From Variovorax soli NBRC 106424 (lineage in GTDB: Bacteria > Pseudomonadota > Gammaproteobacteria > Burkholderiales > Burkholderiaceae_C), in assembly GCF_001591385.1 (NCBI RefSeq), contig NZ_BCUU01000005.1:1-64000 (forward strand): DNA of 64,000 nucleotides, in the 5' to 3' direction. Under the pieces are notes generated by a model. It ran no database searches. It was not told where the DNA came from and saw only the letters and a list, made by a program, of their open reading frames with translations. Positions 23,411-46,561 of this stretch are shown in pieces; positions within the stretch are counted from its first letter, which is position 1; each line of letters opens with the position of its first letter. The translations under genes were made by a program, and so were the position numbers.

Positions 23411-24751
23411 CTAGCGCGTGACCGCCCTGTAGCGGCCCACCTGAGCGGACCGTGGGCTGATGAGCGCCCTTTGCCTCATGAGCCGGCTCGCGAGATAGAT
23501 CAGGACGGCGCCGAGCAGCGCGGCAATCGCGAGAAACAGAAGTCCAGCGTCATAAGACCCCGTGCGGTCCTTCAGCAGGCCAATGAAGTAGGGACTGGCG
23601 ATCGAGCCGACGATGCCGAAGCAGTTGACATAGGCGAACACCACTGCCGCGGTCTTGCCCCTGACCCCAATGCCGGTCAGTTGCCAGATACAGATCGGCC
23701 CGCTGACCAGACCAGCAGTCAGCAGCGCCAGTCCCGCGATCGACGCGTAGAGGCTATGAATGCTCAACAGGATGCCGATGCCCAGTGCAGCGGTCGCGAA
23801 GGAGGCGATCGCGTGCCACACGCGTTCGTTCGTCCGGTCGGAATGCGCGACCCAGAACCAGTACATGACCATACCGAACACACTAGGGATCGCCGACAGC
23901 AGTCCGACCTGGACGGTCGACAGCGTGACACCGAAGAGGCGACCGAACTCCTGGACGATCTGCGGCGTGAAGATCAGGCTCGCATAGAAGCCCATCTGGG
24001 CCATCGCATAGGCGAGGGACAGAAGGATCAAGTGCGGCTGCAACAAGGTGACGCGCAACGGCGGCTCATCTGCCGACGCCGGAGCGTCCGCGATGTCCCG
24101 CGCCGCAAGGACCTGCCGCTTCTCTTCGTCAGTCAGCCAGTCGGCCTCTTCCGGCTTCGAGGTCAGGAAGCGGATGGAGTAGAAGCCCAGCAACACCGGA
24201 AGCAGGCCCTCGACGAAAAGCATGATCCGCCAGCCGGAGAAGCCGAAGAGGCCATCGGCATACTGCACGATCGCCGCCGACATCGGCGTGCCCACGATGA
24301 CCGCCCAGGGCAGCACCGCGATCACAAGCATGCGCCCGCGAAGGTTTGGCGGAAACCACAGCGCCAGGCAATAGATCAAGCCCGGGAACAATCCGGCTTC
24401 GGCGACACCGAGCAGCATGCGGATCGCGATCAGCTGCCATCCGTTTTGCACGAACGCAGTGCACGCGGAGATCAGGCCCCAGGTCACCATGATCCGCGTG
24501 AGCCAGATTCGCGCGCCGACCCGGTGCAGGATGATGTTGCTCGGGATCTCCATTGCCAGGTAGCCGATGAAGAACAGTCCGGCGGCGAGTCCGAATACCT
24601 GCTGGCTGATGCCCAGCTCCGCATTCATGCGCAATGCGGCGGTCCCGATGTTGATGCGGTCGAGGTACGCCATGGTGTACATCAGCATCAGGATCGGAAT
24701 GATCCGCCTGATCACTTTGCGCTGTACTGACGCGGGAAGTGCTTGAGTCAT
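23411..24751 (-). CDS. MFS transporter, anion:cation symporter (ACS) type
   Basis: A 446-residue major-facilitator protein with 12 predicted membrane helices. The ACS-type start KVIRRIIPILMLMYTMAYLDRINIG, the loop motif GYLAMEIPSN and the RGRMLV segment fit transporters of organic and aromatic acids. The ATG follows AGGA. It is divergent from the LysR gene at 24932 and probably controlled by it. Likely role: uptake of the compound degraded by the enzymes further downstream. Confidence 0.92.
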   Translation of the reverse strand: MTQALPASVQRKVIRRIIPILMLMYTMAYLDRINIGTAALRMNAELGISQQVFGLAAGLFFIGYLAMEIPSNIILHRVGARIWLTRIMVTWGLISACTAFVQNGWQLIAIRMLLGVAEAGLFPGLIYCLALWFPPNLRGRMLVIAVLPWAVIVGTPMSAAIVQYADGLFGFSGWRIMLFVEGLLPVLLGFYSIRFLTSKPEEADWLTDEEKRQVLAARDIADAPASADEPPLRVTLLQPHLILLSLAYAMAQMGFYASLIFTPQIVQEFGRLFGVTLSTVQVGLLSAIPSVFGMVMYWFWVAHSDRTNERVWHAIASFATAALGIGILLSIHSLYASIAGLALLTAGLVSGPICIWQLTGIGVRGKTAAVVFAYVNCFGIVGSIASPYFIGLLKDRTGSYDAGLLFLAIAALLGAVLIYLASRLMRQRALISPRSAQVGRYRAVTR

Positions 24752-24931: not shown

Positions 24932-25825
24932 ATGAGCCTCATCGATCTGCGGACGCTGAAGCACTTCGTCTGCGTAGCGGAGAGCGAAAGCATTTCGAAG
25001 GCGGCGGAACTGCTGCATATCTCGGCGTCGCCGTTGAGCCGCACCATCCTCAACCTCGAAGAGAAGGTCGGCTTCGCGCTTTTCGATAGAGTCGGGCGGA
25101 ACTTGCGGCTCAACAATGCGGGGCGCGAACTGCTGCTCAACGCGCGACAGCTCTTGTTGAGTAACGAGCGGCTCATGCTCGACCTGCAGCGCAGGGCCGC
25201 CGGCGATGGCGGCACGGTGGTCATCGGTCACATGCCAGGCGCGCTCTACAACGGCATCATTCCCGACACAGCCAAGAGCGTGCAGGCGGCGCATCCCGCG
25301 ATCCGGTTCCAGTTCGAGAGCGCGCTCGAGAGCCTGCAGCTCGAAGAGCTACGCCGCGGTCGATTCGATTTCGCGGTGCAGACCCAGGAGCTCACCGACC
25401 CGGCACTCGCCTCGGCGGTCTACAGCTCGGAGCCCTACGTGTTACTGATGCCGCGCGACCATCCGCTGGTGAAGGTGCCTGAGATCTCGGTCGGCCAGTT
25501 GAGGGATGTCGAGTGGGTGGTGACACCCGAGCGCAGCGGGCCCTCTCTGCGAGCCAGATTCATGCTGGCCTGCAACCGACTTGGCTTCGAGCCGCGCGTC
25601 GCCTGCGTCGCGGGCGACATCATGTCGGCGCTCGCGCTGGTCTCGAGCGGCTTCGGCTTGTGTGCTGCGCAGGAGAGCCTGGTGCAGTTCTCGGGCGGCA
25701 ACATCGTCGTGCGCGATCTCCCGCTGCTCGAGATGCGGACCGACTACCGCATCGTCTGGCGGCCGGACGCGCTCAGCCCTGCGGCGACCCGGTTCCTCGA
25801 TGCCTTGCTGGGTCGTCCGGCCTGA
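24932..25825 (+). CDS. LysR-family transcriptional regulator
   Basis: A 297-residue LTTR. N-terminal helix-turn-helix: DLRTLKHFVCVAESESISKAAELLHISASPLSRTILNLEE, then effector domain from about residue 90 (VVIGHMPGALYNGIIP). The 180-bp gap to the divergent MFS gene should hold its operator; no clear T-N11-A pair stood out. It ends 13 bp before the convergent TetR gene. The effector is probably the aromatic substrate of this module. Confidence 0.93.
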   Translation: MSLIDLRTLKHFVCVAESESISKAAELLHISASPLSRTILNLEEKVGFALFDRVGRNLRLNNAGRELLLNARQLLLSNERLMLDLQRRAAGDGGTVVIGHMPGALYNGIIPDTAKSVQAAHPAIRFQFESALESLQLEELRRGRFDFAVQTQELTDPALASAVYSSEPYVLLMPRDHPLVKVPEISVGQLRDVEWVVTPERSGPSLRARFMLACNRLGFEPRVACVAGDIMSALALVSSGFGLCAAQESLVQFSGGNIVVRDLPLLEMRTDYRIVWRPDALSPAATRFLDALLGRPA

Positions 25826-25838
25826 GGAACGCAAGACA

Positions 25839-26585
25839 TCAAGCCAACGGCTTGCGGCCCTTCCTGCTCGTCTTTGCTGTTGCCGGCGATGCCGCCGCAG
25901 CCCGGTGGGCCAGCAGGACTTGCGGCGCGCCGTTCAGGAATGATTCGACCCTCATATCAATCAGTCGATCAATATTCCGCGGGGCTGAGAGGTCGTAGAC
26001 CCACTTGCGCACGCCGATATAGAAGACGCTCGAGTGCATGGCCCAGATGAGTTCGACTTCTTCATCCTCGGCCTCGGCGCTCTCGGGTTCCGGAATGCCG
26101 TAGGCAAAGCGCAGCTCGCGCGCGATCAGCAGGAAGTGGCGCTCGCGAAGTCGCGTGAGATAGCGCTGGTTCACGCCGGCGCGACTCAGGCCCGCATACA
26201 TGAAGATGCGCACCCATTCGCCGCGGAGCACGAAGTGCGCGTAGTCCTTCAGATAGCGCTTGAGACGGCTTTCGAGCGAATGCGTGCGGTCCGCGAGCCA
26301 CTCCTCCCACTCGGGGTTCCAGCGCCGCACGAACACCTCGTCGTAGACGCGATCGACCAGCGCTTCCTTGGTCGGGAAGTAGCGATACAGCAAAGGCTGC
26401 GATACGCCCAGCCGCTGCGCGAGATCGCGCGTGCTGCCTTCGAAGCCATGCTTCGCGAAAAAACTGATCGCCGACTGAACGATCTCGTGCTCGCGGTCCT
26501 CTGGGGCGAGGCGGCGGCGGCGCTGCCCGGCGCCGGTGGTGCTTTCGTCCGAAGTCTCGTCGGTCTTGGCCATGCGTTGGGTCAT
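25839..26585 (-). CDS. TetR-family transcriptional regulator
   Basis: About 248 residues from ATG at 26585 (next ATG 26573; neither has a clear ribosome-binding site). The TetR DNA-binding domain is at about 25-75: IVQSAISFFAKHGFEGSTRDLAQRLGVSQPLLYRYFPTKEAL. The ligand domain follows, with a basic tail rich in Ala, Arg and Lys. It is divergent from the second ABC importer operon starting at 26804. The 218-bp gap between them includes an AT-rich stretch near 26735-26765, likely the controlled promoter. Confidence 0.9.
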   Translation of the reverse strand: MTQRMAKTDETSDESTTGAGQRRRRLAPEDREHEIVQSAISFFAKHGFEGSTRDLAQRLGVSQPLLYRYFPTKEALVDRVYDEVFVRRWNPEWEEWLADRTHSLESRLKRYLKDYAHFVLRGEWVRIFMYAGLSRAGVNQRYLTRLRERHFLLIARELRFAYGIPEPESAEAEDEEVELIWAMHSSVFYIGVRKWVYDLSAPRNIDRLIDMRVESFLNGAPQVLLAHRAAAASPATAKTSRKGRKPLA

Positions 26586-26803
26586 CGGCAATGTGTATGG
26601 AACGTTGGCTGGTCCGCCACAGCGCAAATAACGCTTCGCGGACCGATCGCTTGATTATTAGGCCGTCCAACCCCGTGCTCGCACCTGCTGCGGGTAAACC
26701 CCGACACACCTATGTCAAACCGCACTTGCTCAGGAAATTCCGCCCAATTATTATTTATCACCCGATCACCTAGTATCGAAACCTCAAGACGAACGGAGAC
26801 TCC

Positions 26804-28054
26804 ATGACAATCGATCGCAGGAATTTCATTGCAGCAGCCGCGACTGCAGGCGCTGCACTGGCAGCACCTTCGCTGGTGCGCAGCCAGGGCGCACCCGAGC
26901 CGTTGCGCCTGGGCCTGCTCACAGCCAAGACAGGGCCCTTCGCTTCCGGCGGCCTCGACATGGAGCGCGGGTTGCAGAGCTACCTCGCAGCCAACGACCA
27001 GATGCTCGGTGGGCGCAAGGTCGAACTCATCGTGGCCGACACGGGGGGCGTGCCGTCCACCGCGCGCACCAAGACGCAGGAACTGGTCGAGCGCGAGCGC
27101 GCGCAGGTGCTCATGGGTCCGCTGGCCGCCTTCGAGGCACTGGCGACCGACGACTACATGCGGGCCCGCAAAATCCCGGTGTTTCCGGTCGCCGCGGCGG
27201 AAGACATGACCCAGCGTAAGGCCAACCCATGGCTTTTCCGGGCGAGTTCGACCTCGGCCCAGTGCGCCCATCCACTGGCGGACTACTGCGCGAAAAAGCT
27301 CAAGTACAAGCGTATGGTGCTGGTGGCAGACGACATCGCCTACGGCCACGAGATGACAGCCGGCTTCCAGCGCGTGTTCGAGGAAGCCGGGGGCAAGGTG
27401 GTGCAGAAGTTGTTCCCGCCGCTCACCGCTCCCGACTACGGCAGCTTCCTGGCCCAGCTCAACCGCGATGCCGACGCGGTGTTCCTCGGGTTCGCGGGCT
27501 CCAACGGTTTTCGCTTCATCCGCCAATTCAACGAGTACGGCCTGCGCGGCAAGCTGGCGCTCGTCGGCGGCATGACGGCTCTGGACGAAGCAGTGCTACG
27601 CAACATGGGCGACGAAGCGCTCGGGATCGTCACGGTGAACTGGTATTCGGCGGAGCTCGCGAACCCGGTCAACGCGAAGTTTGCCGGTGCCTTTCGGAAG
27701 GCGCATGGCTACGACCCCGGCTTCTATGCCGCCTGCACCCATGTCAGCGCTTCGGTACTCGACGCCGCGCTGCAGCCGTTGAAGGGGCAGGCATTCGATC
27801 GTGAAGCGCTTCGCGCATCGCTGCAGAAGACGAACGCATCGACCGCACGCGGCCCGGTGCGGTTCGACGCCTGGGGCAATGTGGTCGGCAATGTCTACGT
27901 ACGTACTGTCGAACGCAAGGACGGACGCCTGGTCAACACGATCATCGAAACCTATCCGGACGTGAGCCAGTTCTGGACATACGACCCGAAGAAGTTCCTT
28001 GCCGAACCGGTGTACTCGCGCGACTGGCCGCCCGCCAGGAATCTCGTCGGCTGA
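26804..28054 (+). CDS. ABC substrate-binding protein (branched-chain type)
   Basis: A 416-residue periplasmic binding protein with a twin-arginine-like signal (TIDRRNFIAAAATAG, cleavage near LVRSQGA). The mature start PLRLGLLTAKTGPFASGG and VELIVADTGGVPSTARTKTQELVERE are typical of the Peripla_BP_6 family. CGGAGA precedes the ATG. First gene of an unfused importer operon (binding protein, livH, livM, livG, livF) leading into catabolic enzymes, so the ligand is probably their substrate. Confidence 0.92.
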   Translation: MTIDRRNFIAAAATAGAALAAPSLVRSQGAPEPLRLGLLTAKTGPFASGGLDMERGLQSYLAANDQMLGGRKVELIVADTGGVPSTARTKTQELVERERAQVLMGPLAAFEALATDDYMRARKIPVFPVAAAEDMTQRKANPWLFRASSTSAQCAHPLADYCAKKLKYKRMVLVADDIAYGHEMTAGFQRVFEEAGGKVVQKLFPPLTAPDYGSFLAQLNRDADAVFLGFAGSNGFRFIRQFNEYGLRGKLALVGGMTALDEAVLRNMGDEALGIVTVNWYSAELANPVNAKFAGAFRKAHGYDPGFYAACTHVSASVLDAALQPLKGQAFDREALRASLQKTNASTARGPVRFDAWGNVVGNVYVRTVERKDGRLVNTIIETYPDVSQFWTYDPKKFLAEPVYSRDWPPARNLVG

Positions 28055-28116
28055 CGCCCTTGCGGAGCTTCAAGGCTCGCGGCCGCTTCGGCGCGACGGG
28101 CCCTGACGTCAAGAAC

Positions 28117-28977
28117 ATGCAATTCTGGTTGACTCAGACACTCAACAGCCTGGCCCTCGGCGGCCTGCTGCTGCTGCTCTCCTCGGGCTTCGCGCTCATC
28201 TTCGGGCTGATGCGCATCGCCAACCTCACGCATGGCGCGCTCTTCATGATCGGCGCCTACGTGGCCGCGAGCGCGGCGCGCGCCGGCTGGGGCTTTACAC
28301 CCGCAGTGATACTCGCCGCGCTGTCGACTGCAGTGATCGGCGGCCTGTTCGAGCGCCTCGTGCTGCGCCGCCTTTCGGGGAATGCGCAGGCGCAAGTGCT
28401 GGCCACGCTCGGCCTCTCTTTCATCGCCGCCGACCTCTGCCTCGTGCTGTGGGGTGGCGACCCGATCCCGGTCTCGCCACCGCCTTTCCTAAGCGGCCCG
28501 GCCACGCTGTTCGGATTCGCCTTTCCGAGTTATCGGCTGGCCGTGATCGTCGTAGCGGTGGCGACGGCCCTGGTGCTGTACCTGCTGCTGGAGCGCACGC
28601 GGCTTGGCGCCCGCATCCGGGCCGGAGTCGACGACATGCCGATGGCGCGTGCGGTTGGGATTCGCGCCTCGGCACTGTTCACCACCGTGTTCTGCCTCGG
28701 CGCGATGCTGGCCGGTGTCGGCGGTGCGTTCGGCGGGCCGATGCTCTCGGCCTATCCTGGACTCGATGCCGACATGCTGCCCCTTGCGCTGATCGTGGTG
28801 ATCCTCGGCGGTGTCGGCAGTTTGCCCGGCACCTTCATCGCCAGTTTCATCATCGGGTTCATCTATACCTTCGGCACTGCGCTGATCCCGGATCTCGCCT
28901 ACGTGATCCTGTTCCTGCCGATGATCCTGGTGCTGGCCTTCCGGCCCGCCGGCCTGCTCGGAGGTGCCCGCGCATGA
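28117..28977 (+). CDS. Branched-chain-type ABC permease (LivH-like)
   Basis: A 286-residue inner-membrane permease starting MQFWLTQTLNSLALGGLLLL, with the signature GLMRIANLTHGALFMIGAY near residue 30. The start at ATG 28117 is preferred to the TTG at 28060, whose extra 19 residues are hydrophilic and unlike the family. Together with the next gene it forms the channel. Its stop overlaps the next start as ATGA. Confidence 0.9.
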   Translation: MQFWLTQTLNSLALGGLLLLLSSGFALIFGLMRIANLTHGALFMIGAYVAASAARAGWGFTPAVILAALSTAVIGGLFERLVLRRLSGNAQAQVLATLGLSFIAADLCLVLWGGDPIPVSPPPFLSGPATLFGFAFPSYRLAVIVVAVATALVLYLLLERTRLGARIRAGVDDMPMARAVGIRASALFTTVFCLGAMLAGVGGAFGGPMLSAYPGLDADMLPLALIVVILGGVGSLPGTFIASFIIGFIYTFGTALIPDLAYVILFLPMILVLAFRPAGLLGGARA

Positions 28978-29915
28978 ACACCACCACCATCCGGGGCCTG
29001 CTGCTGCTCGTGGCACTGGCCTTGCTGCCGGCAGTGCTCGGCGAGTACTACGTCAATCTCGGCAGCCAGATGCTGATCGCCGTGATCTTCGCCTCAAGCC
29101 TGAACCTCCTCGTGGGCTATGCCGGGCTCACTTCTCTTGGCCATGCGGCCTACCTGGGCCTGTCGGCCTACATCTCGGCGTGGCTCGCGCTGCATGTGGG
29201 CATCGGTCATGCCATGGCAGCACCGCTGACGCTGCTGGCCACCACGGCAATCGGCGGCGTCTTCGGCTGGATCGCGCTGCGGGCCTCGGGCCTGAGCTTT
29301 CTGATGCTGACGCTCGCGCTCTCGCAAGTGGTGTGGGGCCTGGCCTACCGCTGGACCTCGGTCACCAACGGCGACAACGGCCTGTCGGGCATCACGCGCC
29401 CAGCGCCCTTCGGCATCGACCTGGAAAGCAGCAGCGCGTACTACTGGTTCGTCCTCTCGATCAGCGCTGTGGTGCTGCTGGTCATCGCTCGGCTAGTGAA
29501 CTCGCCCTTCGGCGCTTCGCTGCAAGGCACGCGCGATCAGGCGCGCCGCATGAGTTCGCTCGGCTACAACGTCTGGGCGATCCGCTGGTGCGCCTTCGTC
29601 GGTGCGAGCTTCCTGGGTGCCGTGGCGGGCTTGCTCTACGTCTACTTCCACAAGTACGTGCATCCGAGCGTGCTGTCGGTCACCGCCTCGGCCGAGGTGC
29701 TGCTGAGCGTGATCGCGGGCGGCGCGGGCACGCTGGCCGGGCCGGCTGTCGGGGCCGTGCTGGTGGTGCTGCTCAAGAACTACGCATCGGGCTACATCGA
29801 GCGCTGGAACATTCTGCTGGGAGCCGTGTTCGTCTTCATCGTGCTGGTGATGCCGCACGGCATCGTGCCGGGCGTTCGCACGCTGCTTGCGGGACTGAAG
29901 GAGAAGCGCGCATGA
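28974..29915 (+). CDS. Branched-chain-type ABC permease (LivM-like)
   Basis: A 313-residue inner-membrane permease with about nine hydrophobic segments. NLLVGYAGLTSLGHAAYLGL is the LivM signature and VIAGGAGTLAGPAVGA the conserved C-terminal motif. It starts and ends with four-base ATGA overlaps with livH and livG, showing tight translational coupling. Here the permease is a separate protein, unlike the fused one at 15236-17836. Confidence 0.92.
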   Translation: MNTTTIRGLLLLVALALLPAVLGEYYVNLGSQMLIAVIFASSLNLLVGYAGLTSLGHAAYLGLSAYISAWLALHVGIGHAMAAPLTLLATTAIGGVFGWIALRASGLSFLMLTLALSQVVWGLAYRWTSVTNGDNGLSGITRPAPFGIDLESSSAYYWFVLSISAVVLLVIARLVNSPFGASLQGTRDQARRMSSLGYNVWAIRWCAFVGASFLGAVAGLLYVYFHKYVHPSVLSVTASAEVLLSVIAGGAGTLAGPAVGAVLVVLLKNYASGYIERWNILLGAVFVFIVLVMPHGIVPGVRTLLAGLKEKRA

Positions 29916-30652
29916 CCGCGGCGCTCGAAATCAAGGGCCTGCGCAAGTCGTTCGGCGGTATCGCCGTGACGCAGGATGTCTCGCTCACCATGCAGCGAGG
30001 AGAGCGGCGCCTGATCATCGGGCCCAACGGCGCTGGCAAGACCACGCTGTTCGGCCTGATCGCCGGCGAGATCCGGCCGGACAGCGGATCGATCCGCATC
30101 TTCGGCGAGGACGTGACGACTCTTCCGGTTCGCGCACGCGCACGCTACGGGCTCGCACGCACCTACCAGATCATCACGCTGTTCCCGAAGGACACGCTGG
30201 CCCACAACGTGGTCCTGGGGCTGATGGCCCTGCTTCCGCTGCGCCTCGACGTAAGCAGTGCGCTGTCGCGGCAAACGGCGCTGCACGATCGTGCCGTGGA
30301 GCTCCTCGATGGCGTCGGGCTGGCTTCCAAGGCGCTGCATCGCGTCTGCGACGTGTCCTACGGCGAACAGCGCCGGGTAGAGCTCGCGATCGGGCTGGCA
30401 CAGCAGCCCCGCCTGCTGCTGCTCGACGAGCCGCTGGCAGGACTCTCGCAGGACGAGCGGGTGGTCGTGCAGCAGCTCATCGCACAAGTACCGCGCGAGA
30501 CCGCCATCCTCATGATCGAGCACGACATGGACGTAGCGCTCGAATTCGCCGAACAGATCACGGTGCTGCATTACGGACAGGTGATCGTCGAGGGTGACCG
30601 CCGCACCGTTGTGAACCACCCAAGAACGAGGGAGATCTATCTTGGCCACTGA
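29912..30652 (+). CDS. Branched-chain-type ABC ATPase (LivG-like)
   Basis: A 246-residue ATPase: Walker A GPNGAGKTT near residue 37, Q-loop in RTYQIITLFP, signature VSYGEQRRVELAIGLA and Walker B LLLLDEP, then the LivG H-loop IEHDMDV. All catalytic motifs are intact, in contrast to the LivG part of the fused protein. It overlaps livM by ATGA and livF by 11 bp. Confidence 0.93.
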   Translation: MTAALEIKGLRKSFGGIAVTQDVSLTMQRGERRLIIGPNGAGKTTLFGLIAGEIRPDSGSIRIFGEDVTTLPVRARARYGLARTYQIITLFPKDTLAHNVVLGLMALLPLRLDVSSALSRQTALHDRAVELLDGVGLASKALHRVCDVSYGEQRRVELAIGLAQQPRLLLLDEPLAGLSQDERVVVQQLIAQVPRETAILMIEHDMDVALEFAEQITVLHYGQVIVEGDRRTVVNHPRTREIYLGH

Positions 30653-31364
30653 TGCACTCAGCGTTAGCGGGCTTGACATCTACTACGGGCAGAGCCAGGT
30701 CGTGCACCAGCTGTCGATGGGCCTGCGCGATGGACGCGTGCTTGCGCTGCTCGGGCGTAACGGCGCCGGCAAGAGCACGACGCTCAACACCTTCGCCGGG
30801 CTGCACCGGGCGCGCAGTGGCGGCATCAAGCTGGCGGGTCGTCCCGTCGAGCGCATGTCGCCCGAAGGCATTGCGCGCGCCGGCATGCGGCTGGTGCCCC
30901 AGGGCCGCCGGATCTTTCCGAGCCTGAGCGTGCTGGAGAACCTTCAGGTCGCCGAACAGGCTGCCGCAAAGAGCGGCGGCAGGCAGGCGTGGAATCTCGA
31001 GCGCGTCTACGCGACTTTCGGCCGCCTCAAGGAGCGCGCCCGCCAACGCGCCGGAACGCTATCGGGTGGCGAGCAGCAGATGCTCGCCATCGGCCGCGCG
31101 CTGATGGGCAATCCGCGCGTGCTGCTGCTTGACGAACCTTCCGAGGGTCTCGCGCCGATGATCGTCGCCGAGGTGGCGCAAGCCATCAAGACGCTCAAGG
31201 CCGACCGGCTCTCGATCGTCCTGGTCGAACAGAACTTCAACCTGGCGCTCGAAGTGGCGGACGACGTCGTCGTGCTCAACACCGGCCGCGTCGTCCATGC
31301 CGGCAGTGCCGATTCGGTGCGCGCCGAACCCGAGCTTGCCACCCGGCACCTGGGCGTCTTCTAG
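30642..31364 (+). CDS. Branched-chain-type ABC ATPase (LivF-like)
   Basis: A 240-residue ATPase: Walker A GRNGAGKST, signature LSGGEQQMLAIGRAL, Walker B LLLDEPSEGL, H-loop region VLVEQNFN. Translation most likely starts at TTG 30642 (MATDALSVSGLDIYYG), which has GGGAG 9 nt upstream inside the livG gene; an ATG at 30652 is out of frame. The last gene of the importer is followed by the catabolic genes. Confidence 0.92.
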   Translation: MATDALSVSGLDIYYGQSQVVHQLSMGLRDGRVLALLGRNGAGKSTTLNTFAGLHRARSGGIKLAGRPVERMSPEGIARAGMRLVPQGRRIFPSLSVLENLQVAEQAAAKSGGRQAWNLERVYATFGRLKERARQRAGTLSGGEQQMLAIGRALMGNPRVLLLDEPSEGLAPMIVAEVAQAIKTLKADRLSIVLVEQNFNLALEVADDVVVLNTGRVVHAGSADSVRAEPELATRHLGVF

Positions 31365-31495
31365 GCGGCCGAATTCCTCCACCTCTCACACACAACGGAT
31401 CCCACGTGCTCTATACCTGCTCTCCTCACTGCACCGACCCGACCCATCACCACTCGCGAACGTCCTCCGGGCGCGCACGCAGCGCGGCCCTCTCG

Positions 31496-32548
31496 ATGGC
31501 GCAGACGGCCACTGCATCTGCGCCGGCCCGCAGCAGTCGCCCGCCAGTCGTCGATGTGCATTGCCACTACCTGAACCCGGATGTCGCCAAGGCGGCGAGC
31601 GATCTCGACGTCGCCCGCCACGACCCGAGCGTGATCTATGCGAATGCACTCACCCGCGAAACCAACGTCGCACAGATGCGGGATCGCGCGCCGAAGCTCA
31701 CCGGAATCGATCAACGCCTCGATGACATGAACCGCATGGGGATCGACATCCAGGCGATCAGCCCGGCGCCGTTCCAGTTCTTCTACTTCGCGCCACCGGA
31801 ACGCGGTGCCTCGCTCGCGCGACAGGTGAACGAAGGCATCGCGGCGCTTGTGGCGGAGACCCCGCAGCGCTTCGTCGGTCTCGGCTCGGTGCCGTTGCAG
31901 AACGCCGAGCTTGCGATTCAGGAACTGGACCACGCGATCGGCACGCTCGGCCTGCGCGGCATCGAGATCAACACCAACGTCAACGGGCTCGACCTCACCG
32001 ATGCCCGGCTCGGGCTGGAGCCATTCTTCGCACGCGCCGATGCGCTCGGCGCGGTGATCTTCCTGCATCCCGTGGGCTTCTCGGACGGTGCCCGACTGAC
32101 AGATCACTACTTCAACAACGTGATCGGCAATCCGCTGGACACGACGGTGGCGGTGAGCCACCTGATCTTTGATGGCGTGGTGGCGCGCTATCCGAACATC
32201 AGGTTCATTGCCGCGCATGGCGGCGGCTATGTGTCGCACTACTGGGCGCGCATGGATCACGCCTGGCGCGCGCGCAAGGATTGCCGGACGGTGATCGACC
32301 GCGCGCCCTCGAGCTACCTCAAGACCTTCTACGTCGACACCATGGTGTTCGATCCCGAGATGCTGCGCCATCTGGTCGATCTGGTCGGCGCCGATCGTGT
32401 GCTGCTCGGTACCGACTATCCGTACGACATGGGAGAGGAGAACCCCCGCGCACTGATTGCTTCGGTGCGAGGCCTGTCGAGCGATGAAGTGGCGCAGATC
32501 GAAGGGCTCAATGCCATGAAGCTCCTCGACATCGCGCCCATGCGTTGA
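31496..32548 (+). CDS. Amidohydrolase-family decarboxylase (ACMSD-like)
   Basis: About 350 residues in the amidohydrolase-2/ACMSD family of metal-dependent decarboxylases. Metal ligands: HCH in VDVHCHYL near residue 20, His in FLHPVG, His in IAAHGGGY and Asp in LLGTDYPYDMG. ACMSD relatives remove CO2 from aromatic and heteroaromatic acids, including dihydroxypicolinate and gamma-resorcylate. ATG 31496 was chosen over GTG 31406, whose extra 30 residues are not family-like. Its stop lies 17 bp before the next gene. In context it probably decarboxylates a hydroxylated heteroaromatic acid. Confidence 0.85.
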   Translation: MAQTATASAPARSSRPPVVDVHCHYLNPDVAKAASDLDVARHDPSVIYANALTRETNVAQMRDRAPKLTGIDQRLDDMNRMGIDIQAISPAPFQFFYFAPPERGASLARQVNEGIAALVAETPQRFVGLGSVPLQNAELAIQELDHAIGTLGLRGIEINTNVNGLDLTDARLGLEPFFARADALGAVIFLHPVGFSDGARLTDHYFNNVIGNPLDTTVAVSHLIFDGVVARYPNIRFIAAHGGGYVSHYWARMDHAWRARKDCRTVIDRAPSSYLKTFYVDTMVFDPEMLRHLVDLVGADRVLLGTDYPYDMGEENPRALIASVRGLSSDEVAQIEGLNAMKLLDIAPMR

Positions 32549-32565
32549 GCACTCGGGAGTCTTCC

Positions 32566-33699
32566 ATGTCGGCCTCGCCAACTTCCTTGTCCCTGTTCAG
32601 CGAACTCGCCATCGGGCCGCTTCGCTTCCCCAATCGCATCGTCGTCTCGCCGATGTGCCAGTACTCGGCCCGCGAGGGTGTCGCAAATGACTGGCACCTG
32701 CAGCACCTCATGCAACTGGCCATGTCCGGTGCTGGACTGGTCATGGTCGAAGCCACTGCTGTCGAAGCACGCGGGCGCATCACGCACGGCTGCCTCGGCC
32801 TCTACAGCGACGAAGCCGAAGCTGCGTTGGCGCGCGTGCTCCAGGCGGCCCGGGCGGTGGCCGCGCCGGGCACGCGCTTCGGAATCCAGCTCGGCCATGC
32901 GGGCCGCAAGGGCTCTGCCGACGTCCCGTGGCATGGCGGCGCGCCGCTCAAGGCCGGCAGCGACGCCGGCGCACCCTGGCGCTGCTCGGCGCCCAGCGCC
33001 CTGCCTTTCGCGCCGGACTGGGACACGCCCGAGGCACTCGACGAAGCCGGCATCGGCCGGCTGGTCGACGCATACGTCGATGCCGCGCGGCGCGCGGTGC
33101 GCCTGGGCTTCGATGTCATCGAGCTGCATTGCGCGCACGGCTACCTGTTGCACCAATTCCAGTCGCCGCTTGCGAACCGGCGCGACGACGCCTGGGGTGG
33201 TGACGCGGCCCGGCGCGACCGGTTGGCGCTTCATATTGCGCAGACCCTGAAAAAGCACGTGCCGAGCGACCGCGTGCTCGGCGCGCGTATCACCGGCACC
33301 GACTGGGCCGAGGGAGGTCTCGGGCCCGACGACGCGGTTCGCCTCGCGCGGCGGCTCAGGGACCTCGGCTTTGGCTACGTCTGCGTGAGCAGCGGCTTTG
33401 TCGTTCGCGGCGAGCGCATTCCCTTCGGCCCCGGGTTCCAGGTCGCGCTGGCGGCGCAGGTGCGGCGGCAGAGCGGCATCACCACGCGCGCCGTCGGCGG
33501 CATCAGTGAGCCGATGCAAGCGGCCGAGATCATCGCGTCCGGCCAGGCCGACCAGGTCGCTCTGGCGCGCCCGTTCCTCGCTGATCCGCGTTGGGTCTGG
33601 CGGGCCGCGGAAACGCTCGGCGTCACACCCTACTATCCGGCGCCCTATCGCCGCGCGGCTGGCTTGCGCAAGCCAGCCACTTTCGATCGAACCCAATGA
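32566..33699 (+). CDS. NADH:flavin oxidoreductase, old yellow enzyme family (YqjM-like)
   Basis: A 377-residue FMN enzyme. [21 protein letters not shown] is typical of the YqjM subgroup, with the redox-tuning Cys. The pair of substrate-binding His is in [13 protein letters not shown] and the FMN-binding [16 protein letters not shown] segment is present. The ATG at 32566 has GGGAG upstream. OYEs reduce activated C=C bonds; in heteroaromatic pathways they reduce ring or enone intermediates. Its stop overlaps the next start as ATGA. Confidence 0.92.
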
Positions 33700-34178
33700 C
33701 CAACTCGTTCGAACTCAGGGTCAATGGCAGCACGCAGACAGTGCAGGCCGACGAGAACGACCTTCTGCTTTACGTGCTGCGCAACGACCTCGACTGCAAG
33801 GGCGTTCGCTTCGGCTGCGGTGCAGGCCACTGCGGTGCCTGCACGGTCTGGATGGACGGTCGCCCGGTCCAGTCCTGCGACATGCCGCTGTGGGGTACCG
33901 CCGGACGCGAACTCACTACCATCGAGCACCTGCGAGACGACCCGGTGGGCGCAGTCGTGCTCGACGCGTTCGTCACGCTGCAGGCGGCGCAGTGCGGCTA
34001 CTGCATCAACGGCATCCTGATGTCGGTGACGGCATTGCTTCGTCGCACCACCGCGCCGACCGAAGCCGACCTGCATGAGACGATGCACAGGCATCTGTGC
34101 CGCTGCGGCGCGCACGCGCGCATCCTGAAAGCGATTGACGCGGCCGCCGCGCGGCTGCGCACGGAAGGCCAATCATGA
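33696..34178 (+). CDS. Molybdenum hydroxylase, [2Fe-2S] subunit
   Basis: A 160-residue iron-sulfur subunit of the xanthine-oxidase family. The plant-ferredoxin-type cluster is held by Cys41, Cys46, Cys49 and Cys61 ([12 protein letters not shown]...QSC), the second cluster by Cys100, Cys103, Cys135 and Cys137 (QCGYC, CRC). It passes electrons from the Mo site to an outside acceptor. No FAD subunit gene follows, so this is the two-subunit type such as isoquinoline 1-oxidoreductase or nicotinate dehydrogenase, which use cytochromes or quinones. ATGA overlaps on both sides. Confidence 0.93.
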
Positions 34179-36289
34179 GCGCCGCTCTTGCCACGCCGAC
34201 CGCCATCCAGGCCCATCCGCGACTGCGCCAATGGTTGCGCATCGGACCGGCGCGCCAGGTCAGCGTGTTCACCGGCAAGGTCGAACTGGGCCAGGGCATC
34301 GAGACTGCGCTGGTGCAGATCGCCTGCGACGCGCTCGGACTGGCCCCGGCGCAGGTGCTGCTCGTCGCAGGCCGCACCGACCGATCGCCCGACGAAGGCT
34401 ACACAGCCGGAAGTCTCTCTGTGCAGTACGGCGGGGCGGCGCTACGCTGGGCCTGCACGCACGCCTATGCCCTGTTCAATACGGAAGCGGCGCGTCGACT
34501 CGGCGTGGAACCGTCCGGGTTGCAGGTTGAGGACGGCTGCTTCACCGATCCCGAGGGCCGGCGGCGTATCGACTACTGGGAGCTCGCAGGCTCGGTCGAC
34601 CTCGATGTCCCGATCGTCGAGCCGGCCGCTCTGACCCGCAACGCCGCCAGACCCTACGTGGGCCGCTCGCTGCCGCGCGTGGATCTTCCCGCCAAGCTGA
34701 CAGGTGCCGGCTACCTGCAGGACATGGTCATTCCGGGGATGCTGCATGCGCGCATGCTGCGGGGGCGCCATCCGTCGCAGCGACTGGCGTCGGTGCCGTT
34801 GTCGCAACTGCAGGCCCTGCCCGGCGTCTCCCACGTGGTGCACAGCGGACGGTTTCTTGCGCTGGTGGGCCCGCACGAAGGTGCGTTGGTCCGTGCGTTG
34901 CCCAAGGCGCGCAAGCTGCTCGACTTCGAATCCATGCCCGATCCGCACGCGGGCCGTGACACCGTCTCGCTGCTGCAGGGCCTGCCCGACAGCCCACAGC
35001 GCGTTCATGATTCGGGCACGCCGGGCACGGATCTGCAGACGTACAGCGCCACCTACTCGCGGCCCTACCTGGCACATGCTTCGATCGGGCCTGCCTGTGC
35101 GCTGGCCGATCCACGTGGCGACCGGCTGCGCGTGTGGTCGCACACGCAGGGCGTCTATCCATTGCGCGACCAGATCGCCATGGCGCTGGGCCGCGGGTCC
35201 GACACCGTGGAGGTCATTCATGCGCCGGGCGCCGGCTGCTACGGCCACAACGGCGCCGACGATGCCGCGTTCGACGCTGCCTTCATCGCGATCCGCATCG
35301 GCCTTCCAGTGCGCGTGCAATGGATGCGCGAAGACGAGATGTCGATGTCGCCGTTCGGTTCGGCCAGCGCGGTGCGACTCACGGCCGGTCTGGACGCAGC
35401 AGGTCGCATCGGAAGCTGGACCTTGCGCCTGTGGAGTCACACCCACATGAACCGGCCCGGCTGGGGCGATGGCGTCAACCTGCTCGGCGCTTGGGAAGTA
35501 GAGCCGCCACTCCCGCGGCCAGCAGCGCGCGACCTGCCGCTGCCCATGGGTGGCGGCGACCGCAACGCAATCGCGCTTTATGACCTGCCGCATCAGCAGG
35601 TCGACTACTACTTCATCGCGGAGTCACCGGTGCGCGTGTCGGCACTCCGATCGCTGGGTTCCTACTGCAACCTGTACGCGATCGAGAGCTTCATGGACGA
35701 GTTGGCGCGGATCGCGGATTGCGACCCGGTCGAATTCAGGCTGCGTCACCTAGGCGATGTGCGCGCACGCGAGGTGCTGGAGACCGCGGCCCGGATGGCC
35801 GGCTGGAGCCGGCGCGGCGAAAGCGGTACCGGCAGCGGCCTGGGCATCGCCGTCGGCCGCTACAAGAACCAGGCCGCGTATTGCGCTATCGCGTTGCAGG
35901 TCGGCGTCGAAGAGAGAGTCCGGGTCGAGAAGGCCTGGGTCGTTGTCGACGCTGGCGCGGCGGTCAATCCCGACGGGCTGGTCAACCAGATCGAAGGCGG
36001 CCTTCTTCAATCATTGAGCTGGACGCTGAAGGAAAGCGTGACCTGGGACCACACAGGCATCACGTCGTGCGACTGGGAGCACTATCCGATCCTCGGCTTC
36101 GACGAGATCCCGGAAATCGCGGTGCACTTGATCGAACGGCCCGACCAGCCCAGCCTCGGCGTGGGCGAAGCAGCCGCCGGGCCGGCCGCCGCCGCTGTCG
36201 CCAACGCAGTGGCCCATGCCCTCGACCTGCGCGCGAGGCAACTGCCTTTGTCCGCCGAGCGCCTGGCCCAACTCATCACCGAGGGCTGA
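34175..36289 (+). CDS. Molybdenum hydroxylase, molybdopterin-binding subunit
   Basis: A 704-residue catalytic subunit of the xanthine-oxidase family. It binds molybdopterin (cytosine dinucleotide in relatives) and adds an OH from water to a carbon next to a ring nitrogen. Seen: [14 protein letters not shown] at the N-terminus, [27 protein letters not shown], and the catalytic Glu in [17 protein letters not shown] near the C-terminus. No Tat signal, so cytoplasmic. Length fits IorB-like subunits minus their signal. Coupled to the [2Fe-2S] gene by ATGA. Confidence 0.92.
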
Positions 36290-36339
36290 TCGCACGCCCC
36301 TCGAATCCGACCCGAATCCAACATTCAAGGACTCTCACC

Positions 36340-36792
36340 ATGGCCATCCAGACCCTTGCCCACTACTCGGTGCGCACCACCCGCCTCGAGGCTTCCCGCC
36401 ACTTCTATGTAGATGTGCTCGGCTTCCGTGAAGGCTTCAGGCCGCCTTTCGACTTTCCGGGCCTCTGGCTCTACAAGGGCGACGATGAGGCGCAGTACGG
36501 TGTCGTGCACATCATCGGCATCGACCCGGACTCGCCGCAGGGCCTCGTCGAGTACCTCGGCGACAAGAGCGTGGATTCCCTTCACGGCAGTGCCGCAATC
36601 GACCATGTGGCCTTCCTCGCAACGGATCTTCCCGACATGCACAGGCGTCTGCGAGGCGCAGGCCTCGCCTTCCGCGAACGCACCGTGCCGAGCATCGGCC
36701 TGCACCAGGTGTTCGTCGAGGACCCCTCGGGCGTCACGATCGAGTTGAACTACCCTGCCCACGAGGCGCTCGAAAGCGGAGCGCAGGCATGA
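36340..36792 (+). CDS. VOC-family dioxygenase/glyoxalase-like protein
   Basis: A 150-residue VOC protein: LAHYSVRTTRLEASRHFYVDVLGF, AIDHVAFLATDL and VEDPSGVTIELNYP, so His9, the His of AIDHVAF and the Glu of IELNY form a possible H-H-E metal site. That site occurs in small extradiol dioxygenases, glyoxalases and epimerases. No other candidate for ring opening lies in this module, so it could be the ring-cleaving enzyme, but this is inference. Its stop overlaps the next gene by ATGA. Confidence 0.82.
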   Translation: MAIQTLAHYSVRTTRLEASRHFYVDVLGFREGFRPPFDFPGLWLYKGDDEAQYGVVHIIGIDPDSPQGLVEYLGDKSVDSLHGSAAIDHVAFLATDLPDMHRRLRGAGLAFRERTVPSIGLHQVFVEDPSGVTIELNYPAHEALESGAQA

Positions 36793-38024
36793 GCGCCGCG
36801 CAATCGACCAAACCGGCGCGCAAGGCGCTGGTCATCGGCGGCTCGCTCGGCGGACTGTTCGCGGGCAATCTGCTGCTACGCGCCGGCTGGGATGTCCACA
36901 TCCACGAGCGCGTGGCCGACGAACTCGAGAGCCGGGGCGCCGGCGTGGTGACGCATCCCGAGCTGATGGATGTGCTGAGCGCTGCAGGGGTCGACTTGTC
37001 GGACGGGATCGGCGTCGAGGTCCGCGAGCGCATCACGCTGGCGCGCGATGGCCATGTCGAGAGCTCCCGCCCGCTGCCGCAACTGCTCACCGCCTGGGGA
37101 CGCCTGTACCAGGTGCTGCGTCGAGCATTTCCTTCGGAGCGCTATCACAGCGGACGTCAGTTGGTCTCGTTCGAGCAGGATGCCGGCGCTGTACGCGCGA
37201 CGTTCGCCGACGGAGAGGTGATGTCCGCCGATCTTCTAGTGGCGGCTGATGGCTTGCGCTCGACCGTGCGCCAATCGCTCGCGCCCGACGCGCGTCCGCA
37301 CTACGCGGGCTATGTCGCATGGCGCGGGCTCGTCGAGGAAGCGAGCCTTTCGCCGCGGGCGCTCTCCGAGCTCTTTCCATATTTCGCATTCGGCCTGCCG
37401 CCGCGCGAGCAGATGATCGCCTACCCGGTCGCAGGCGCGGGCAACAGCGTGGAGCCCGGTCATAGACGCTACAACTTCGTCTGGTACCGGCCGGCCGACC
37501 GCGACACGACGCTGCGCGAGATGCTCACCGATGCGACCGGCAAGACCTGGCCCGACGGCATTCCGCCGCCGCTGATCCGCCCCGAGGTGCTCGCCGAAGC
37601 GCGCCGGGCGGCGCACGAGGTGCTGGCACCGCAGTTCGCCGAGGTGGTGGAGAAGACTCCCAACCTGTTCTTCCAGCCAATCTTCGATCTCGAAAGCCCG
37701 GCGATTGCGTTCGGCCGCGTGGCCTTGCTGGGCGATGCCGCGTTCGTTGCGCGGCCCCATTGCGGGATGGGCGTCACGAAGGCTGGCAGCGATGCAGCGG
37801 CATTGGTTCGCGCGCTTGAAGCCGCACCTGACGTGCCACTCGCGCTCAAGGCCTACGAGGCTTCGCGCCTCCATGCCGGCAGCTTCATCGTGGGCCATGC
37901 GCGCGCTCTGGGCGCCTACATGCAGGCGCAGATCGCCACGCCCGCCGAGCGCGCGATGGCGGAACGCTACCGCAGCACCGAAGCGGTGATGCGGGAGACC
38001 GCCGTGCCGCCGGTGCCGCATTGA
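36789..38024 (+). CDS. FAD monooxygenase, 2,6-dihydroxypyridine-hydroxylase-like
   Basis: A 411-residue flavoprotein hydroxylase: FAD motif ALVIGGSLGGLFAGNLLLRAG at the N-terminus, VAADGLRSTVR, and ALLGDAAFVARPHCGMG with the second FAD contact. The overall shape, with the sentence ESRGAGVVTHPELM, is nearest to 2,6-dihydroxypyridine 3-hydroxylase among enzymes I know. It would add a second OH, using NAD(P)H and O2, to the ring already hydroxylated by the Mo enzyme. ATGA-coupled to the VOC gene. Confidence 0.87.
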   Translation: MSAAQSTKPARKALVIGGSLGGLFAGNLLLRAGWDVHIHERVADELESRGAGVVTHPELMDVLSAAGVDLSDGIGVEVRERITLARDGHVESSRPLPQLLTAWGRLYQVLRRAFPSERYHSGRQLVSFEQDAGAVRATFADGEVMSADLLVAADGLRSTVRQSLAPDARPHYAGYVAWRGLVEEASLSPRALSELFPYFAFGLPPREQMIAYPVAGAGNSVEPGHRRYNFVWYRPADRDTTLREMLTDATGKTWPDGIPPPLIRPEVLAEARRAAHEVLAPQFAEVVEKTPNLFFQPIFDLESPAIAFGRVALLGDAAFVARPHCGMGVTKAGSDAAALVRALEAAPDVPLALKAYEASRLHAGSFIVGHARALGAYMQAQIATPAERAMAERYRSTEAVMRETAVPPVPH

Positions 38025-38068
38025 CTCGCCCTGGCGTTCTGCTTTTCCCCGAATCACCGACCGACAGC

Positions 38069-39058
38069 ATGTTTTCCTCCTTCTCCATCGCACGCCTGTT
38101 CGCAACTTCGCTCGCGCTTGCCTGCGCCTTCGCAGCGGCCCCTTCCGCGGCGGCGGAGCCGTCTTGGCCAAGCCGCCCCATCACGGTAGTGATCGGCTAT
38201 CCACCCGGAGGCAGTGTCGACGCGGTGGGGCGCGCCGTGGTCGAGACGCTCGGCAAGAAGCTCGAAGCCACCGTCGTCGTCGACAACGCCGGCGGAGCAG
38301 CGGGCGCGATCGGCGTACAGAAAGTGGTGAACGCCGCACCCGATGGCTATACGCTGATTCTCGGATCGAGCAGCGAATTCGTGGCCACGCGCTTGCTGAA
38401 TCCGGCACAGAAGTACGACGCCGCGAAGGACCTGGCGCCGATCGGCTATGTCGGTTCCATCCCGTTGGTGCTGGTCGCATCGAGGCAGAGCGGTGTGACT
38501 TCGCTCGCGCAGTTCGTCGACGTTGCTCGAAAGAAGCCCGGCCAGATGAGCTACGGCACCTCGGGAATCGGGTCAATGCTGCATTTTTCGGGCGAGCTCG
38601 TGAAGAAGCAGGCTGGCCTCTCCATCATTCACATCCCCTATCGCGGCGCGGGCAACATCGGCGCGGACCTCGCCGGAGGTGCGATCGAGTTTGCCTTCCT
38701 TGGGCCTGGTGCGGCCAAGCCTTTGGTCGATGCGGGACGCATCGTCCCGATTGCAGTGACCAGTGCACAGCGCATCGCATTGATGCCCGAGGTACCTGCG
38801 CTGGGTGAGCATCCGGCACTCAAGGGGTACAACCTCGTTGCGTGGTATGCGCTGATGGCACCACGCGGGTTGACGCCGGACACTCAAATTCAGCTGCAAC
38901 GCGCCTTGCGCGAGACGCTGCGCGACACGACTGTGCAGCAGAAGCTCGAACGCGTAGGCGTCGTGGTCGGCCGCGGTGACGAGGACCTTTCGGAGCGGAT
39001 GGCAAACGATGCCATTGAATACCAACGCATCGTCGACTTCGCAGGCATGAAGCAATAG
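38069..39058 (+). CDS. Bug-family (TTT) periplasmic binding protein
   Basis: A 329-residue Bug receptor. Signal peptide 1-29 (hydrophobic core, end APSAAAEP). The mature N-terminus WPSRPITVVIGYPPGGSVD and TVVVDNAGGAAGAIGVQKV, GYTLILGSSS and HIPYRGAGNIGADLAGG are the family fingerprint. Start at ATG 38069; the TTG at 38021 would place a hydrophilic tail before the signal. Bug proteins bind carboxylates or aromatic acids for uptake or sensing. No TctA/TctB membrane genes are nearby, as is common for Bug genes in Burkholderiales. Confidence 0.92.
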   Translation: MFSSFSIARLFATSLALACAFAAAPSAAAEPSWPSRPITVVIGYPPGGSVDAVGRAVVETLGKKLEATVVVDNAGGAAGAIGVQKVVNAAPDGYTLILGSSSEFVATRLLNPAQKYDAAKDLAPIGYVGSIPLVLVASRQSGVTSLAQFVDVARKKPGQMSYGTSGIGSMLHFSGELVKKQAGLSIIHIPYRGAGNIGADLAGGAIEFAFLGPGAAKPLVDAGRIVPIAVTSAQRIALMPEVPALGEHPALKGYNLVAWYALMAPRGLTPDTQIQLQRALRETLRDTTVQQKLERVGVVVGRGDEDLSERMANDAIEYQRIVDFAGMKQ

Positions 39059-39545: not shown

Positions 39546-40274
39546 TTAGGTCGATGCTGCGCGCCGCCGTCCGCGGCTTTTTGCAAGATGCAGCCGCATG
39601 GCTGCGCCTGCTGCCTCGGGGTCCTTGAGTCGGATCGCGGCAAGGATATTTCCGTGCTCCTCCAGCACTTCGAGCTCCCAGACCCCGTTCACATGCGAGG
39701 CGTGGGCGCGCTCGAAAATCGAGGAGGAGACGGCAGACGGCCCCAAGGCTTCGAGCACTGACGCGAAGTGCGGGCTGTGCGCGGCATGTGCAATGGCAAG
39801 GTGAAATCTCAGGTCTGCATGCGCGGTGTCGGCTTCTTCCGCCAGTGCGGTCCGCAGCGCTTCATAGGCATGGCAGATGGCCGCGAGGTCTTCCGCCGTG
39901 CGGCGTTGGGCGGCCAGCACGGCTGCTTCCGACTCCACGCCAAGACGCAGTTCGAGGGCCGCAAGGGCGTGCCCCGGGCCTTCGGCGTCGTCCACACAAA
40001 AGGGCTTCGATCGCAAGGTGCTGGCCACGAAGGTTCCGACACCCTGGTGCGACTGCACGAGGCCGGCCGCTTTCATTCTGGCGAGCGCATCGCGCACCAC
40101 GGTGCGGCTCACGCCGAAGTGGGCCATGAGCATGGCTTCCGTGGGGAGCTTGTCTCCGGCTTTAAGCAAGTCCTCGCGGATGCGACGCTCAAGTTCTTCA
40201 ACCAAGCTCACGGCAAGGTCGCGCCGCCGCGGGTAGCCTTCGCGCGATGCCTCCCTCAAGGGGGCAGGCACCAT
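39546..40274 (-). CDS. GntR/FadR-family (FCD) transcriptional regulator
   Basis: A 242-residue regulator from ATG 40274 (AAGGA 10 nt upstream; a TTG at 40295 is possible). Winged helix at about 18-85 (LVEELERRIREDLLKAGDKLPTEAMLMAHFGVSRTVVRDALARMKAAG), FCD domain after it with metal-site residues in DLRFHLAIAHAAHS and LEEHGNIL. It is the last gene of the sugar-acid operon, with 28 bp between galactarate dehydratase and its ATG, so it probably autoregulates. FadR-like GntR proteins often control galactarate/glucarate genes. Confidence 0.9.
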   Translation of the reverse strand: MVPAPLREASREGYPRRRDLAVSLVEELERRIREDLLKAGDKLPTEAMLMAHFGVSRTVVRDALARMKAAGLVQSHQGVGTFVASTLRSKPFCVDDAEGPGHALAALELRLGVESEAAVLAAQRRTAEDLAAICHAYEALRTALAEEADTAHADLRFHLAIAHAAHSPHFASVLEALGPSAVSSSIFERAHASHVNGVWELEVLEEHGNILAAIRLKDPEAAGAAMRLHLAKSRGRRRAAST

Positions 40275-40302
40275 GGTGTCGCTGTCCTTGGCCAATGGGC
40301 GC

Positions 40303-41892: not shown

Positions 41893-41921
41893 GTCGGTTG
41901 TGCAGACGTGGCGCGTTGGCG

Positions 41922-42899: not shown

Positions 42900-42979
42900 G
42901 CTTGTCTCCTCTTGCTGATGTGGTGGGATTCGGCCGGGGTGCCGCAAGACGCCCGGCATGAATGGCTTGCCGCGCCGCT

Positions 42980-43747: not shown

Positions 43748-43749
43748 GG

Positions 43750-44484: not shown

Positions 44485-44497
44485 TTGCTTGCCGGCT

Positions 44498-45472: not shown

Positions 45473-45530
45473 GGCGTGTCTCCGTATGGCTTTTTGTCGA
45501 ACGTGGTGAAGGCGCCGTAGCGCAGTGCAC

Positions 45531-46484: not shown

Positions 46485-46531
46485 GAGATCGGGAAATGTG
46501 CGTTTCAGGATGGGTTGATGGTAGATATAGG

Positions 46532-46561
46532 TTGATCCAATAGGCAATCTTGACGTATAAA
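46532..46561 (+). promoter_or_regulatory. Promoter in AT-rich divergent region
   Basis: TTGATC (46532-46537), an 18-bp spacer and TATAAA (46556-46561) form a reasonable sigma-70 promoter for the fusion gene starting at 46591. The surrounding AT-rich stretch (about 46520-46580) must also hold the promoter of the minus-strand operon. Confidence 0.45.

Follow-up and report, generated by a model that had tools for sequence, protein, structure and literature searches.

The window analysed here, a stretch of 64,000 nucleotides from Variovorax soli NBRC 106424 (contig NZ_BCUU01000005.1, positions 1 to 64,000), contains an operon-like run of genes, all on the plus strand, between positions 26804 and 39058. 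Within it a gene for a small VOC-fold protein (36340..36792) has an ATGA overlap with a gene for an FAD monooxygenase (36789..38024; referred to as FMO) that resembles the 2,6-dihydroxypyridine 3-hydroxylase (DHPH) of nicotine catabolism. Comparison with other genomes reveals that these two genes form a conserved pair often accompanied by interchangeable molybdenum (Mo) hydroxylases, and this is a more interesting finding than the cluster that a first-pass annotation of the same DNA had put forward as a new route for an N-heteroaromatic acid. That interpretation is itself plausible and partly supported, and we propose, with a probability of about 0.5, that the run is an accessory operon enabling the host to grow on an N-heteroaromatic carboxylic acid. 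It is also possible, if doubtful, that the VOC-FMO pair is an undescribed unit for opening N-heteroaromatic rings, in which the VOC protein would be a new single-domain pyridine-type ring-cleavage dioxygenase replacing NicX, with a cupin-like protein in its stead in the Hyphomicrobiales and at least three Mo hydroxylase lineages feeding it across the Burkholderiales, including freshwater Polynucleobacter. NicX is the best studied pyridine-ring-opening enzyme, and a few others are known. If true, the proposal would add another such route and a marker for unrecognised N-heterocycle-degrading capacity, and as a two-gene unit of about 1.7 kb the pair is open to testable prediction.

Pairing of the VOC and FMO genes across genomes

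There are several features of the pairing. First, a scan of genome contigs with the VOC protein identifies 39 loci, 37 of them beta-proteobacterial and two from Rhodospirillales, and FMO lies directly after VOC in 36; the hosts of the pair are Variovorax, Burkholderia, Paraburkholderia, Cupriavidus, Noviherbaspirillum and Polynucleobacter. The others are the two Rhodospirillales loci (L143 and L144), where a TRAP-type binding protein, recognised by eye, follows VOC instead, and one locus (L124) in which the stretch ends just past VOC. Second, the link is also seen from the FMO side. Most rows of a 53-row FMO clade (support 100/100; the tree is midpoint-rooted, carries a long-branch warning and is used for this clade only) came from the VOC search, and the link was re-read from FMO-based searches. 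In genomes these have VOC alongside in five matches (G285, G343, G264, G786 and G769), four matches of 47–54% identity without it (G002, G012, G016 and G005), and no VOC near FMO homologues of 44% or less (L219–L223 and L225). On plasmids, VOC adjoins all eight FMO matches of at least 57.9% (H1–H8), and a cupin-like gene adjoins H9, H11 and H12, H10 having been left out of this reading.

Third, a gene for a Mo large subunit is present in 26 of the 39 VOC loci (24 of the 36 with FMO) and in none of 20 arbitrary 20-kb stretches scanned with the same queries (Fisher p 2e-7, ignoring the kinship of the loci). These controls were chosen by hand from six genomes that carry VOC, two small genomes supplying nine of them, and are arbitrary rather than random; the five Mo queries were that of the window, two from VOC test loci (L136 and L120) and two from plasmid records. 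Fourth, the Mo enzymes near VOC belong to three lineages: a two-subunit permuted type, represented by the window type in 2 loci and by a 43% relative in another 2; a three-subunit type, found in 17 loci and as its 65% relative in 1; and a 1084-aa type, found in 4. Among solved structures the three-subunit type reaches 443 bits with both CoxL and quinoline 2-oxidoreductase, and its scores to xanthine dehydrogenases do not exceed 127 bits. Locus L120 is from a metagenome-assembled genome titled Bordetella parapertussis, whose FMO groups with those of environmental Burkholderiales metagenome-assembled genomes; the name looks wrong.

Sequence features of the two proteins

The first-pass annotation described a small VOC protein with an H-H-E set and a 2,6-dihydroxypyridine-hydroxylase-like enzyme, and both descriptions stand. 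The VOC protein is identified by domain search, alignment and a structure model (pLDDT 79) with an ordinary VOC fold. In an alignment of 54 rows, the window included and some rows duplicates, H8, H57, H89, Q123 and E135 are present in every row and H122 in 52; the invariant H8, H89 and E135 correspond to the H-H-E iron triad, with a metal role assigned by analogy. The FMO belongs to the PRK07236 family (NF005566, 516 bits, above the curated cut-off of 333), and its best match among solved structures is DHPH (2vou, 170 bits, residues 12–379 aligned). It scores 77 bits to the protein of 3rp6/3rp8, which we take to be HpxO, and 87 bits to 6-hydroxynicotinate 3-monooxygenase, so that against 170 bits to DHPH it does not appear to be of the NicC type.

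Organization and conservation of the operon

The run opens with importer genes recognised by domain searches: a periplasmic substrate-binding protein (SBP; Peripla_BP_6) with a possible Tat signal (26804..28054), LivH-type (28117..28977, BPD_transp_2) and LivM-type (28974..29915) permeases, and LivG-type (29912..30652) and LivF-type (30642..31364) ATPases. There follow a putative decarboxylase of the ACMSD-type amidohydrolases (DEC, 31406..32548), an old yellow enzyme (OYE, 32566..33699) of the XenA/YqjM class of ene-reductases (up to 319 bits in the PDB, Pfam Oxidored_FMN, with an upstream TTG start at 32545 possible), the small iron-sulfur (FeS; 33696..34178) and large (34175..36289) subunits of a Mo hydroxylase, VOC and FMO, and lastly a Bug/TctC-type binding protein (38069..39058, Pfam TctC). 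Open frames, Pfam and NCBIfam place all genes named in the first-pass annotation where it had put them and on the same strand, including an SBP-LivHMGF set for the dedicated ABC importer, whose transport function is predicted. ATGA overlaps are found at five joints (LivH-LivM, LivM-LivG, OYE-FeS, FeS-Mo and VOC-FMO). The ATGA coupling proposed for the catabolic genes is thus present at the last three of these but not between the Mo large subunit and VOC (50-nt gap) or between FMO and Bug (44-nt gap).

Judging from its conserved order, the run is not a chance arrangement. It is kept whole in V. ginsengisoli (L109), at 84–96% identity from SBP to Bug (Bug 88%, and 82% for the TetR-type regulator upstream), and from SBP to FMO (75–91%) on a plasmid record of 1.24 Mb from Variovorax sp. 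PDNC026 (L204), where Bug is not kept. V. ginsengisoli also shows a second FMO match past Bug, but the plus strand holds no open frame of 200 aa at that place. The operon is accessory: just 2 of the other 36 genomes of the genus, a set that includes incomplete ones, have an FMO of at least 76% identity. In another strain of the genus (G769) the upstream MFS, LysR and TetR genes and VOC-FMO are kept at 67–84% next to a different importer, with a Mo enzyme like NicAB and an OYE of another family about 16–20 kb away; the core is therefore constant there while the front end is exchanged.

The small subunit of the Mo hydroxylase has two [2Fe-2S] domains (Fer2 and Fer2_2, nine cysteines), and the large Mo-cofactor subunit has a permuted domain order with a GVGE motif at residue 662. 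Such an order is typical of the known FAD-less two-subunit class (IorAB/NicAB). Domain annotation finds no FAD subunit within the run, as the first-pass annotation had observed, so the gene content is that of this class. We infer a two-subunit FAD-less Mo hydroxylase, which may hydroxylate N-heteroaromatic rings. With its large subunit as query, 40 loci with 42–53% relatives are found, among which FMO and VOC occur together only in L076; three loci from the same search (L064, L068 and L069) have a DEC-type gene of 28–32% identity.

An ACMSD-like decarboxylase and an OYE are indeed present ahead of the Mo genes. DEC matches ACMSD in the PDB with 190 bits, and in alignment with it has the complete HxH, H, H, D metal and catalytic set. 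Its start is most likely at 31406 (GTG, 380 aa) rather than 31496, because the Cys/His-rich N-terminus so included is common to several relatives, among them a 60%-identical Polynucleobacter protein (L127), and the start is moved accordingly. This stretch (31406–31460), of a form like TCSPxCxDPxHxH, has similar counterparts in L127, L179–L181, L183, L184, L186 and L188, is absent or partial in the ACMSD-type enzymes of L185, L189 and L190, and is perhaps an extra metal site. Locus L127 (5358–12649) holds VOC-FMO, a PuuE-related deacetylase and DEC (60% identity over its extended length) within about 7 kb. Other Burkholderiales have Liv-DEC as a conserved unit in its own right, near which are found CocE/NonD and 6-phosphogluconate-dehydrogenase-like genes (L184 and L188) and one for maleylacetoacetate isomerase (L184).

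Exchange of partners in Alphaproteobacteria

On plasmids of Agrobacterium, Rhizobium and Bosea, an FMO of 53–55% identity is found in a TetR|SBP-DEC-ALDH-Liv-FMO arrangement (ALDH, aldehyde dehydrogenase), and in all three a 135–136-aa protein, cupin-like in the HxH and H residues of its sequence, takes the place of VOC; that of Agrobacterium has no Pfam match. In Agrobacterium and Rhizobium another VOC, an OYE, a cytochrome c and a Mo enzyme lie downstream, within about 20 kb of FMO, and the DEC gene overlaps the ALDH gene. The best solved relative of the Agrobacterium ALDH is a putative gamma-hydroxymuconic semialdehyde dehydrogenase. Agrobacterium sp. CGMCC 11546 was considered as the 3-hydroxypyridine degrader DW-1, and the idea was dropped: the DW-1 paper gave no match for a CGMCC number, and of the papers searched those naming CGMCC 11546 deal with exopolysaccharide and curdlan production.

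A proposed pathway and its alternatives

What the DNA shows directly is which genes are present and conserved, which cofactor and metal motifs they encode, and that VOC is paired with FMO; each of the reactions that follow is predicted from this. The Liv-type importer would take up the acid, the Mo hydroxylase would put a hydroxyl on a ring carbon beside the nitrogen, and the DHPH-like FMO would add a second. The VOC protein, with a metal site of H8, H89 and E135, would then open the ring in place of NicX. Loss of the carboxylate would be the work of the ACMSD-type enzyme, with the opened product a likelier substrate than the intact ring; by analogy with ACMSD, this enzyme may act after ring opening, not before it as in the order given by the first-pass annotation. 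The OYE would reduce a remaining C=C. VOC-FMO would be the conserved core, into which different Mo hydroxylases feed different but related substrates.

An N-heteroaromatic substrate is supported on several grounds. First, VOC and FMO are paired, Mo genes are enriched nearby, and the FMO is nearest DHPH among solved structures. Second, the commonest Mo type is nearest CoxL and quinoline 2-oxidoreductase, and far from xanthine dehydrogenases. Third, the Agrobacterium and Rhizobium plasmids gather DEC, ALDH, Liv, FMO, cupin-like, OYE and Mo genes within about 20 kb; the overlap of DEC with ALDH, and the likeness of the Agrobacterium ALDH to a hydroxymuconic semialdehyde dehydrogenase, point the same way. 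Fourth, strain G769 keeps VOC-FMO with a NicAB-type Mo enzyme and an OYE. Finally, DEC has the ACMSD-type residue set and the genome has no match to NicX. Of the readings weighed this is the best, with the substrate, the order of reactions and the reaction of the VOC protein inferred.

A number of observations nonetheless weigh against it, several of which bear on particular alternatives. The 39 VOC loci are not independent: 17 share one three-subunit Mo type, and of the five Mo queries two came from test loci. No Mo gene is present in 13 of the 39, in part from contig or locus ends, and a DEC-type gene lies near VOC in 7 of 39 as against 0 of 20 controls (p 0.08). Relatives of FMO of 47–54% (L182 and L275–L278) have neither VOC nor an FMO-adjacent cupin-like gene; in L182 another cupin is present, and in L275 a DEC-type gene lies directly upstream of the FMO relative. 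A fold search with the VOC model (Foldseek; 313 matches at E<=0.001, the best a lactoylglutathione lyase) is non-discriminating, being non-specific between dioxygenases and glyoxalases, and one homogentisate dioxygenase ranks 43 among the 50 matches listed. The best solved relative of the Mo large subunit is an aldehyde dehydrogenase (8gy3, 100 bits), which would suit a substrate without ring nitrogen (an aldehyde, furan or pyrone, or phenolic acid), for which the Mo enzyme would oxidise aldehydes or O-heterocycles, the FMO would be a phenol hydroxylase and the VOC protein an ordinary extradiol-type dioxygenase. The OYE and VOC families are unspecific for N-rings and the alphaproteobacterial versions include an ALDH gene, in keeping with this. 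However, among solved structures the FMO is nearest 2,6-dihydroxypyridine and then 6-hydroxynicotinate hydroxylases, and the other Mo partners include a type equally near quinoline 2-oxidoreductase and CoxL; we consider a substrate of this kind rather unlikely.

The Liv-DEC genes also occur without VOC-FMO in the 20 kb fetched, as SBP-LivHMGF-DEC in L181 and L184 and as LivHMGF-DEC, with no SBP match, in L188, at 52–71% identity to the window genes, and VOC-FMO is likewise found without Liv-DEC. This would be expected of two independent modules sharing a promoter, the importer, DEC and OYE serving one compound and Mo, VOC and FMO another. Conservation of the run in three Variovorax, and the proximity in another order of DEC-type, OYE, Mo and FMO genes in the Agrobacterium and Rhizobium plasmids, make such an arrangement distinctly improbable.

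A last point concerns Methylobacterium plasmids (L206 and L262), where an FMO of the same clade (48%) ends an NCS1-racemase-MFS-UraH-UraH-UraD run. In L262 a PuuE-like frame, recognised by eye, precedes this urate-type run, and no urate oxidase is annotated in either stretch. A cupin-like gene lies convergent to FMO, beside TetR and a three-subunit Mo enzyme, which in L206 is 65% identical to the Polynucleobacter one. FMO-type hydroxylation of urate-like compounds is known from HpxO and TmuM, and the DHPH-type FMO of Methylobacterium may be a substitute for HpxO from another FMO subfamily. On a purine-like reading, the Mo enzyme in the window would make a urate-like compound and the FMO hydroxylate it, VOC and the amidohydrolase replacing UraH and UraD. 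Many Polynucleobacter-type loci have a PuuE-related deacetylase next to VOC-FMO, which would fit such a route, but its score is 116 bits where the cut-off is 425. Moreover, UraH and UraD genes beside FMO are absent from the window and the VOC loci searched and occur only in the Methylobacterium loci, and two homologues of UraD (48% and 43%) lie elsewhere in the source genome. The window FMO and its Methylobacterium relative score 170 and 165 bits to DHPH versus 77 and 76 to 3rp6/3rp8, and the OYE and importer would be left unexplained. Part of the FMO clade may act on a purine-like substrate; for the window such a route is improbable.

Genes flanking the operon

Just upstream of the run are an MFS transporter gene (23411..24751, minus strand; Pfam MFS_1, and the HpaX/galactonate-type family by NCBIfam, below the cut-off), a LysR-type regulator divergent from it (24932..25825, plus strand; Pfam, NCBIfam and homologues), and a TetR-type regulator divergent from the operon (25839..26627, minus strand), relatives of which (38–75%) stand beside VOC-FMO in many other loci. 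In two other Variovorax (L204 and L273) homologues of the MFS gene (83–84%) lie beside a 76% LysR and are linked to the cluster. Directly downstream on the minus strand (39546–46547) is a cluster that looks sugar-acid-like from its genes: a GntR regulator, an altronate-dehydratase family member, two TctC-like proteins and an SDR (TctC and SDR by eye), an FAH-family hydrolase and a 2-hydroxyacid dehydrogenase. A second catabolic cluster on the plus strand (49344–59657) codes for an alpha/beta hydrolase, a 297-aa VOC protein, a DhbE-like acyl ligase (353 bits, below the cut-off), a thioesterase-like protein, a Bug protein, an Asp/Glu-racemase-type protein, more hydrolases (several by eye) and an FMO matching the N-terminal half of salicylyl-CoA 5-hydroxylase (381 bits), and looks like a CoA-dependent route for a hydroxy-aromatic acid.

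Comparison with known pathways

No described cluster with this gene set was found in searches of open-licence literature, which hardly reached dipicolinic acid, and the first-pass view that the operon is distinct from the known picolinate and nicotinate clusters is borne out. The C-8 oxidation of caffeine (Cdh-TmuM-TmuH-TmuD) is alike in its order of a Mo dehydrogenase, an FMO and two further steps, but the window has no UraH/UraD-type gene.

The picolinate (pic) cluster of Alcaligenes faecalis JQ135 and Bordetella is described with genes picA1A2A3 and picB1B2B3B4, PicC and a 2,5-dihydroxypyridine dioxygenase (PMC10142695). In common with the window are a Mo hydroxylase first, a second ring oxidation and an amidohydrolase-family decarboxylase, but picA1A2A3, picB1B2B3B4, an EEH-type PicC and the dioxygenase are not seen in the window. 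Locus L237 holds one of two G098 copies of NicX, together with genes for an amidohydrolase, a Mo enzyme and, by eye, Rieske-like proteins, and is taken for the pic cluster as outlined in that source (PMC10142695); its PicC-like protein shows 27% identity to DEC and carries an EEH motif, while DEC has HxH like ACMSD. A NicX query finds no match in the source genome (E<=0.01) but has matches in 9 of the 150 genomes scanned from the order, in 8 cases at 1e-54 or better.

The nicotinate (nic) cluster, which we take to be NicAB-NicC-NicX and to be represented by L238, shares with the window what is presumably the same two-subunit FAD-less Mo class and, in a broad sense, the FMO family. The window FMO is 27% identical to the match in L238, and the window has DEC, OYE and VOC in addition, no NicX match and, unlike the nic cluster, no recognised cytochrome c gene in the run. 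In favour of a divergent form of the picolinate or nicotinate pathway, with 2,5-dihydroxypyridine and NicX at its end, is the outline of enzyme classes, which is the same (Mo hydroxylase, oxygenase and amidohydrolase decarboxylase; PMC10142695 for picolinate). Because there is no NicX match and the PicC-like protein is of another class than DEC, and with an FMO so distant from that of L238 and a Rieske-like oxygenase in L237, identity of the operon with either cluster is rejected, and a divergent form is very improbable.

Two single enzymes are closer. DEC shares with ACMSD (PDB 4ofc, 2wm1 and 6mgs) the HxH, H, H, D residues and an Arg equivalent to human R235, and differs in its Cys/His-rich N-terminal extension and its operon context, no 3-hydroxyanthranilate pathway genes being recognised by eye in the run. 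The FMO resembles DHPH in bit score, and differs in its setting, its partners and probably its substrate. The new element would be the VOC-FMO pair as a predicted ring-opening step, in a pathway that otherwise resembles known kinds.

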